From positions 1 through 64,000 of the forward strand of contig DXCM01000086.1 of assembly GCA_019116025.1 (NCBI GenBank): 64,000 bases of DNA, read 5' to 3'. The notes under the pieces are model-generated. The model searched no databases, was not told the DNA's origin, and worked only from the letters and a program-made list of their open reading frames with translations. The position numbers and the translations under genes were made by a program. This document shows, in pieces, positions 11,829 to 61,991 of the stretch (position 1 is the first letter of the stretch; each line of letters begins with the position of its first letter). The stretch comes from Candidatus Companilactobacillus pullicola. Lineage in GTDB: Bacteria > Bacillota > Bacilli > Lactobacillales > Lactobacillaceae.

Positions 11829-11981
11829 AATAACCATGATTCTATGTTTTATAGTAGAAATAAGCTGCGCAGGCCAGATTCCTGTGCTTTGCTACAGCAC
11901 TGAAATTGCCCGCAAAAGACGCGTGCGATTCCAGTACTTAGGCAAATACTCAGAATCTAAGCGGGCCTGCTTCGCTTTCTA
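11829..11981 (-). repeat. Family-1 structured repeat, copy A (3' UTR of alsD)
   Basis: Read on the minus strand it begins with the alsD stop codon (TAGAAAGCGAAGC). Outer stem GCAGGCC/GGCCTGC and a second segment AGATTC/GAATCT enclose the shared TTTGCCTA...TAGCAAA element. The inner hairpin is AGTACTG-AAT...ATT-CAGTGCT. It ends CTACTATAAAACATAG...ATGGTTATT. The core is shared with copies at 22087, 25341 and 61841, while the stems differ but remain paired. Confidence 0.85.
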
Positions 11982-22086: not shown

Positions 22087-22241
22087 AGAAGAGAGCGAAG
22101 TAGGCCCGGGAATTTCCGAGGATTTGCCTAAGAACTGGAATTAGCCGCCGAACTTGCGGATGATTTCAGTTCTGTAGCAAACTGGAAGAAATTGGCCTAC
22201 GTAGCTCGTTTCCACTATATTGCCAAGAACCATGGTTATTA
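22087..22241 (+). repeat. Family-1 structured repeat, copy B (3' UTR of mntH)
   Basis: Outer stem GTAGGCC/GGCCTAC, second segment AATTTCC against GGAAGAAATT, shared TTTGCCTA...TAGCAAA, inner hairpin AGAACTG-AAT...ATT-CAGTTCT with a GCGG tip stem, and 3' end CTCGTTTCCACTATA...CATGGTTATT. It begins at the mntH stop codon and is followed 46 nt later by a terminator. Confidence 0.9.
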
Positions 22242-25340: not shown

Positions 25341-25516
25341 AGAGAGCGAGGTGAGGGCGGTCAGCCTCCGAGGATTTGCCTAAGTACTGAAATCGCACGC
25401 GTATTGTGCGGGCAATTCCAGTACTGTAGCAAACCGGAAGAGGTTGCCCTCACGCAGCTCATTTCAATAGAGAGCGGAGCTCGTTTCCACTATAAGACAT
25501 AGAACATTGGTTATTA
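25341..25516 (+). repeat. Family-1 structured repeat, copy C (3' UTR of slipin), with rearranged 3' part
   Basis: Outer stem GTGAGGGC/GCCCTCAC, second segment AGCCTCC against GGAAGAGGTT, shared TTTGCCTA...TAGCAAA, inner hairpin AGTACTG-AAT...ATT-CAGTACT. After the right arm the terminal part is doubled: GCAGCTCATTTC is followed by a fresh element start (ATAGAGAGCG, 25467-25476) fused to a normal 3' end (GAGCTCGTTTCCACTATA). This looks like a tandem copy with its centre deleted. Confidence 0.9.
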
Positions 25517-60727: not shown

Positions 60728-61840
60728 ATGAGAAAACGGATAATATTATTTCTTTCAACACTGTTGATGTGTCTGGTTGCCTTTCTGCCAGCGACAACAG
60801 TGAAAGCAGCACCAGATAAATCATATGCGATCCAAGCAATTTTACCCGATAATCAAGTTGACAAAAATGAGTCATATTTCGATTTGAAGATAACTCCTAA
60901 GAAGGAACAAACTTTGAAGGTGTTGATTGCTAATACTGGTACGAAACCAATCACGGTAACCGCTGAGGTCAATAATGCCTATACGGCGGACTCTGGTGTG
61001 ATTGGCTATGACAAATACAACGCTAAATTGTACAAGTCAAAACTTCCTTCATTGACATCATTAGTTGATGGTTCAAGGAAACAAGTTGTAAAGTTAGGCA
61101 CTGGTGAGAATAAGACTGTTTCATTCAAAGTTAAATCGCCAGATTCTGAATATGCTGGGATTATTCTTGGTGGTGTCACGACTACAGCCTCAGTTAGTCC
61201 CACTAAGTCAAAGAACATCAACATTAAGAACCAAGTACGTTACGTCAAAGGTGTTGTATTGCGTTCCAAAGATGATGGAGTAATGCCTGATATGCATCTA
61301 ACATCAGCCGCTCCAAGAGCCGTAGCCGGTTCAACGGGTATTTCATATATGTTGGATAATACAGCTCCAATTAACGTCAACAAGGTCAAATTAACAGCAC
61401 GTATCAAACATAATGGTAAAACTATTAAGTATAGTGCTGACAATTTACAGTTTGCGCCTAACTCACAATTCAATTATTTCATTCCGATTAGTAAGTTAAG
61501 TGCCGGTAGCTATAAAGCACACATTACTTTGAAGAATGATTCTGGATTCTCGAAATCATTCGATAAGAATATTTCGATCCAACAGAAGGAAATTGATAGT
61601 GTACAAAAAGCTGTTAATCCAAAACAGGAAAGCAATAATAAGCAGTGGATTGGTATTATTGTTGGAATTATCGTTCTAATTGTTATTGCAGTTTGGATGT
61701 ACTTGTACTATTCACAACGTAATAAGAATGGTAAAGGACCTAAGGGTCGTAGTGGATTGAGGTTAGGTAAGAAACCTAAGAATGATCCTAATAAGACTAC
61801 TAGATCTGGTAATACTAGAACCGAAAGACATAAGAAGTAG
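60728..61840 (+). CDS. DUF916/DUF3324 WxL-complex protein 3
   Basis: A 370-aa protein: signal peptide ending TTVKA-AP, DUF916 (YAIQAILPDNQVDKNESYF, YAGIILGGVTTTASV), DUF3324 (YVKGVVLRSKDDGVMPDMHL) and a C-terminal helix (WIGIIVGIIVLIVIAVWMYL) with a long basic tail (about 40 residues). The TAG stop is the first part of repeat copy D, so the tail length may have been set by that insertion. Confidence 0.9.
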   Translation: MRKRIILFLSTLLMCLVAFLPATTVKAAPDKSYAIQAILPDNQVDKNESYFDLKITPKKEQTLKVLIANTGTKPITVTAEVNNAYTADSGVIGYDKYNAKLYKSKLPSLTSLVDGSRKQVVKLGTGENKTVSFKVKSPDSEYAGIILGGVTTTASVSPTKSKNINIKNQVRYVKGVVLRSKDDGVMPDMHLTSAAPRAVAGSTGISYMLDNTAPINVNKVKLTARIKHNGKTIKYSADNLQFAPNSQFNYFIPISKLSAGSYKAHITLKNDSGFSKSFDKNISIQQKEIDSVQKAVNPKQESNNKQWIGIIVGIIVLIVIAVWMYLYYSQRNKNGKGPKGRSGLRLGKKPKNDPNKTTRSGNTRTERHKK

Positions 61841-61991
61841 AGAGTGGAGCAGGGGTGGTTAGCCCACGAGGATTTGCCTAAGAAGTGAAATTATCCGCCG
61901 AACTTGCGGATGATTCCACTTCTGTAGCAAACCACAATGGGCTACCCCTGCGGAACTCGTTTCCACTATAAAACATAGGACCATGGTTATT
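61841..61991 (+). repeat. Family-1 structured repeat, copy D (3' UTR of DUF916 gene 3)
   Basis: Cleanest copy. Terminal AGTGGA/TCCACT, outer stem GCAGGGGT/ACCCCTGC, second segment AGCCCA/TGGGCT, shared TTTGCCTA...TAGCAAA, and inner hairpin AGAAGTG-AAT-ATCCGC with GCGGAT-ATT-CACTTCT. It starts at the TAG stop and is followed 7 nt later by a terminator. Confidence 0.92.

Follow-up and report, generated by a model that had tools for sequence, protein, structure and literature searches.

We show that four repeats in the window, the 64,000-nucleotide stretch of Candidatus Companilactobacillus pullicola DNA analysed here, belong to a dispersed, non-coding family of structured repeats that sit right where protein genes end, in sense orientation. 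That this structured family is locked to stop codons is virtually certain, and it very probably spreads between loci by copying. A role as RNA, and not just as folded DNA, is likely, and we favor, with moderate and slightly lesser assurance, the view that this dispersed structured repeat serves as a 3′ element of the mRNA, locked to the ribosome at termination. Dozens of genes in the source genome end in the same folded signal, and this large family, for which Rfam offers no match, occurs in nearly every searched genome of one genus and in further genera.

The preliminary description had reported four elements in the window, with outer stems that differ between copies and with paired inner hairpins. 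A direct check of the sequence finds all four in place (Table 1), with the outer stems GCAGGCC/GGCCTGC, GTAGGCC/GGCCTAC, GTGAGGGC/GCCCTCAC and GCAGGGGT/ACCCCTGC and the inner hairpins AGAAGTG/CACTTCT, AGAACTG/CAGTTCT and AGTACTG/CAGTACT as quoted there; the inner hairpin of copy 1 reads AGTACTG/CAGTGCT, with one G·T. The extent of the elements needed correction, since the structured unit proper spans 122-124 nt and the remainder of the intervals first given is a conserved tail, CCACTATAAAACATAGAACCATGGTTATT and variants of it. Neither the stop codon at the start of each copy nor the size of the family figured in that account. A same-strand stop codon lies at the start of all four copies and is TAG in three of them, and in copies 1 and 4 the AG of the unit completes it. 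A covariance model finds these four places alone in the window, scoring 126-133 bits in the sense direction against 50-53 bits in the opposite one, a scan that fixes boundaries and strand only, as the four copies belonged to the training of the model. The miniature beside copy 3 is read as a deletion derivative of the unit. Orthologs of the window host genes are present in relatives.

Table 1. Structured units, tails and host genes in the window
Feature	Position	Strand	Remarks
Structured unit, copy 1, subtype A	11858..11980	-	AG of unit completes TAG stop of acetolactate decarboxylase gene
Tail of copy 1, CTACTATAAAACATAGAATCATGGTTATT	11829..11857	-	
Host gene, alpha-acetolactate decarboxylase (alsD), PF03306	11979..12686	-	copy 1 overlaps stop codon
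Structured unit, copy 2	22090..22211	+	3 nt past TAA of Nramp-type transporter gene
Tail of copy 2	22212..22241	+	
Host gene, Nramp family transporter, PF01566	20446..22086	+	
Structured unit, copy 3	25341..25464	+	abuts TAG of Band 7 gene directly
Core-less miniature of unit beside copy 3, AGAGAGCGGAGCTCGTTTCCACTA	25469..25492	+	small hairpin, outer sequence same as copy 3
Tail of copy 3	25493..25516	+	
Host gene, SPFH/Band 7 protein, PF01145	24522..25340	+	
Structured unit, copy 4	61839..61962	+	AG of unit completes TAG stop of WxL-interacting protein gene
Tail of copy 4	61963..61991	+	
Host gene, WxL-interacting protein, PF06030 and PF11797	60728..61840	+	

Each window copy folds as one rod, far better than its shuffles do (z = -4.7, -5.9, -3.8 and -6.8), and for none of the four did any of 200 shuffles match the real sequence. 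A single rod with recurring internal loops is seen in all four window copies and in 23 of the 24 displayed units from other genomes, L161 being the sole exception. Recurrent features include AGAGnG and CnCGTTT at the base, a bulge past the second stem, a loop at YGAGSA and, in many units, a CTA/GTA loop. Because AGAGnG, CnCGTTT and YGAGSAT were demanded by the patterns that fetched most loci, their constancy in the wider sets is partly by construction; two units behind alsD orthologs that were reached without a pattern (L121 and L129) share the recurrent motifs.

Compensatory change among the four copies had been taken as the mark of a fold under selection, and an alignment of 53 subtype-A units on the structure of copy 4 (42 pairs) supports this claim. 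Compared with shuffles that ignore relatedness among the 53 units, 24 of the 42 pairs have changed on both sides (19.7 in shuffles), and the 2190 cells, 96.3% of them paired, include 327 double-changed ones (104 in shuffles). The covariation score of 0.430 stands against 0.181 in the same kind of shuffles (reached by 0 of 500) and against 0.056-0.098 with the partner slid, the true register having an advantage over the slid versions because the structure was derived from one of the 53 sequences. Weaker measures are the pairs with double changes, reached by 1 of 500 shuffles, and the further pair types, reached by 24 of 500. Wobbles in this alignment comprise 104 G·T and 43 A·C, 18 of the latter at one pair. 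A model built from the 53 aligned units (R1) gave 65 matches in 50 loci, 58 of them on the sense strand. Among these 58 sense rows, which are mostly of other subtypes and were aligned by fitting to R1, both sides have changed in 39 of 41 pairs, pairing holds in 96.5% of cells, and G·T outnumbers A·C by 126 to 14, from which it follows that the sense strand is the folded strand. This bias fits mRNA as well as one strand of single-stranded DNA and does not distinguish between them. The fold itself appears to be preserved, since paired bases change together.

The start of the units is tied closely to stop codons. Among 57 arrays in the source genome, 52 have a sense ORF ending nearby, and 51 of these start between -11 and +5 nt from the sense stop, the other lying at +77. 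Uniform placement in the same spacers would put 7.7 of the 52 arrays between -12 and +8 of the stop, as against the 51 observed, in a test that omits the five arrays where no sense ORF ends near. The overlap between array start and stop codon often takes the form TAGAG, divided after the T, and the adjoining stops are TAG in 44 of 52 cases, compared with 19 of 82 for motif-free ORFs of at least 200 aa in this genome. Two tail motifs follow 39 and 43 of the 52 arrays. Of the five arrays with no sense ORF near, L022 lies directly behind a terminator, and another, the minus-strand match at L010, could have arisen by chance under the loosened pattern. Elsewhere, the interval from -12 to +8 holds all 20 fetched loci of one relative (G007) and 16 of 21 of another (G018); anchoring is looser in a mixed set from the same genus (14 of 29) and in other genera (7 of 14, a set that includes at least one chance match). 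Such exact one-way placement raises the question of how any repeat finds stop codons. The idea that units truncate genes and so give a false impression of anchoring was rejected, as profiles and orthologs show whole genes. Family profiles reach or nearly reach the C-terminal end in 8 of 10 proteins, the other 2 being uninformative; these 10 come from a list of 16 proteins with a unit overlapping their stop. RNase H orthologs end in LLNETMD(K/R/Q)M in all 12 resolved loci out of 13, G005 having given another ORF.

Wider scans place the four copies in a large family. The pattern of the window subtype, TTTGCCTAAG..CTGTAGCAAA, matches 34 places in the source genome and a pattern of the outer ends only matches 66, with 0 matches for either pattern reversed. 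Units there carry at least three inner types on a common outer frame and often stand in tandem. Across the source genome and its relatives, the window-subtype pattern was found in 6 of 41 genomes, every one of the same genus. A wider pattern was found in 35 of the 36 genomes of the genus, with 0 reversed matches in any and with 1 to 160 counts per genome, some units being counted twice because AGAGAG yields two starts. Throughout the order, 55 of 395 genomes match; since 12 of the 395 have one reversed match each, single matches at this scale are worth little, whereas some genomes from four other genera within the same family reach counts of 16 to 78, far in excess of the control. Outside the own family and a second family (f5), 14 genomes match the wide pattern and 10 match its reversed control. 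The window-subtype pattern also retrieved 58 genome stretches, of which 46 belong to Companilactobacillus or uncultured Lactobacillus (Companilactobacillus kimchii, C. paralimentarius, C. musae, C. suantsaicola and one uncultured Lactobacillus assembly) and 12 to unrelated organisms.

A second model (R2), made from alignment A4, found 0 units on 12 contigs of unrelated organisms with a loose pattern match. It found six loci of a genus (g47) in f5, of which L201 was inside its training and five were outside it (L195, L197, L198, L199 and L200, E 7e-12 to 1e-15, with L199 and L200 nearly identical); R1 missed five of these six. R2 additionally finds L208 and a unit on a Lactiplantibacillus plantarum plasmid; in 12 further pattern loci presented to it, one of them again from g47 (L196), it finds no unit. 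When applied to 398 genomes of the phylum, R1 found the source genome only, a result of little weight given the strict filters and the lack of any other own-family genome among the genomes listed. The plasmid unit from Lactiplantibacillus overlaps the last two bases of celB, as annotated by others. In plasmid searches, one query retrieved two L. plantarum plasmids, a second retrieved one of this pair, and two queries from other genera retrieved none. A phage collection gave no match to two queries, and among the viral stretches from the loose pattern scan (at least 120), R1 found 0 units in the 80 that it scored and R2 0 in 40 of these 80. The source assembly is listed with 8.2% contamination, and a few of its contigs may come from another strain or species.

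The near-stop start, the single orientation and the sense-strand wobbles together favor a role in mRNA. In the transcript, the unit would open the 3′ untranslated region. Given the usual ribosome footprint, its short base stem would lie within the ribosome halted at the stop, and its strong second stem would meet the leading edge of that ribosome. It is possible that the rod shields the 3′ side of the mRNA from nucleases or that it affects termination and recycling, as proposed for REP sequences. Copies would spread as non-autonomous repeats by means of some enzyme, and gene conversion may swap the inner core between copies.

The one-strand bias would equally follow from one DNA strand folding for transposition. 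The fold could be kept for a trans-acting single-stranded DNA transposase of the Y1/HUH type (as for REP and IS200/IS605) that recognises the hairpin, with the stop codon as the least harmful insertion site, an explanation that we consider unlikely but the most serious of the alternatives. Conserved sequence at both ends (AGAGnG, CnCGTTT), the imperfect palindrome, the bias toward one strand and the many copies are all in keeping with it, and REP elements provide a precedent, since passages of PMC3733652 describe GTAG REP termini as often giving a TAG stop to flanking ORFs. The same passages portray REP elements as palindromic, present in many copies, mostly downstream of coding regions and in many cases plausibly transcribed (PMC3733652), and to that extent REP and BIME elements (GTAG and CGTC families, RAYT transposases) share copy number, palindromic form and location with the family described here. 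However, only 18 of the 36 genus genomes have Y1_Tnp (PF01797), and copy number does not follow its presence (Mann-Whitney p 0.45); the high-copy genomes G017, G008, G021, G009, G006 and G002 lack it, and the match in the source genome contains an internal stop. Moreover, least-harm placement predicts use of the whole spacer rather than of the 20-nt interval that holds nearly all arrays (51 of 52, 7.7 expected), and gives no prediction of one orientation. REPs measure 20-40 bp, whereas the units here form rods of about 107-130 nt in which internal loops are conserved. Unlike REPs, they stand in tandem, head to tail, in one orientation and locked to the stop; they have no GTAG tag, their ends being AGAGnG/CnCGTTT with variable bases ahead of the unit; and no Y1 transposase tracks them in the way of RAYT. 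REP is thus the best functional parallel, but by size, tag, orientation and helper the family is not REP.

The cores of 15 unit pairs in G007 are at least 97% identical, with a mean difference of 0.2%, but the 5′ outer arms of these pairs show 1 to 7 differences over 12 bases, and 16 different 5′ arms among 20 units make the arms copy-specific; G018 has just two such core-matched pairs, with 1 and 4 arm differences. One core is found with varying outer arms and tails, and near-identical cores occur at different loci, the simplest reading being that a contiguous inner part is converted between copies and that the arms are older. At six places in the source genome (8 rows) the outer hairpin is kept and the core is missing, and three of the six are solitary copies behind a gene, at -2 to +6. 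A selfish structured RNA element of nested build, whose inner cores move between outer hairpins with site-specific arms and which inserts in the sense direction at stops by a route that reads translation termination (for instance through mRNA ends left by the terminating ribosome), is an alternative to which we give still less credence than to the transposase. The possibility that arms are copied from the target flank was dropped, because the excess of shared words traces back to nearby copies of the element's own arms, in tandem or solo; the local downstream arm repeats are second units or remnants. Downstream of RNase H in G007 (L361 / L465), a repeat of about 100 nt with the 3′ arm and tail occurs twice behind the unit, without a core.

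A SINE-like retroelement, whose RNA is reverse transcribed and inserted, would suit the sense orientation, the hairpin with its conserved tail and the location at mRNA ends. We regard it as very improbable: RVT_1 reverse transcriptase is found in 12 of the 36 genus genomes and is absent from the source genome and from the many-copy genomes G007, G017, G008 and G021, although a lost or distant helper could account for this. In searches for Y1_Tnp and RVT_1, neither enzyme tracks the family, and no mobilising enzyme was found. One genome (G043) has seven reverse transcriptase matches, six with identical scores, which are perhaps one group II intron in several copies.

Complementarity of the arms could in principle also arise from template switching during replication (quasipalindrome correction) rather than from selection, and the copy-specific outer arms of G007 are almost perfectly paired, with 236 Watson-Crick pairs, 1 wobble and 3 mismatches of 240 (242, 4 and 6 of 252 in G018). 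However, such correction would also erase the mismatched loops that recur and are retained both inside the genus and between genera, and it yields no excess of G·T over A·C (126 to 14), so that we find this origin scarcely probable. Least credible of all is that the units are intrinsic transcription terminators or parts thereof, since, although they sit at gene ends, the rod is followed by GTTT and the tail instead of a T-run, and separate terminator-like sites lie downstream, visible past copies 1 and 4 and found within 260 nt of 30 of 52 arrays versus 37 of 200 shuffled windows.

In agreement with the initial failure to recognise a named element, no Rfam family reaches its gathering score on any unit. 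Scans of the window, of 10 loci and of 20 loci gave nothing at that score except one tRNA in L163, and permissive E-values brought up just snoRNA, miRNA and bacterial sRNA models that are unrelated and score under gathering. Skipping-rope RNA, which the family may resemble, had no match in the scans of the window and loci with an Rfam copy that probably includes it. Among folded DNA elements, integron attC sites also place a hairpin behind each gene, as recombination sites that come with an integron integrase and gene cassettes, and EFAR elements are mosaics that integrate into stem-loops. Efa-1 of Enterococcus faecalis is presented in part of PMC2267715 as a 163-bp intergenic, folded and dispersed element with a pair of adjacent stem-loops, in contrast to the one rod here; EFAR, counted among MITEs in a passage of PMC3733652, was compared by its description. 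MITEs such as RUP, Bcr1, NEMIS and ERIC (from a list in PMC3733652) are like the family in being short, non-coding, folded and dispersed repeats beside genes. With regard to MITE features, the ends of the family are complementary in part and no target duplication is visible at one near-empty allele, and its stop-codon placement is far tighter than the 'intergenic' location of MITEs. No description of this family appeared in the literature searched, though an earlier mention may exist.

Orthologous stops occur both with and without a unit and thereby constitute natural experiments on stop-codon structure, mRNA life and translation termination. Across 30 alsD loci, R2 finds units in four (the source genome, G014, G051 and G009), with differing subtypes. 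The nearest empty alsD allele (G045), the one near-empty allele available, retains TAGAGA and may be a deletion scar; no target duplication or clean empty site was seen. The Nramp gene is followed by units in G000, G045, G014 and G019 and by none in G004 and G022, and its length in the bearing species falls short of that in two unit-less species by about four or five codons. The RNase H stop bears a whole unit in G007 (96 bits) and, in G004, a partial unit that belongs to another subtype (31 bits, E 1e-4). Directly past the same stops, other long palindromic-looking intergenic sequences of a different kind are found behind alsD in G001 (L126) and behind RNase H in G002 (L476), and CRISPR-like repeats, ATCATCCC-ATGTATAT-GGGAACAC, begin soon past alsD in G023, G049 and G012 (L117, L118 and L119). 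Finally, at two places in G000 (C5:4880-5264 and C31:9430-9816), each gene of a convergent pair ends in its own unit, and the two units face each other across a short spacer.
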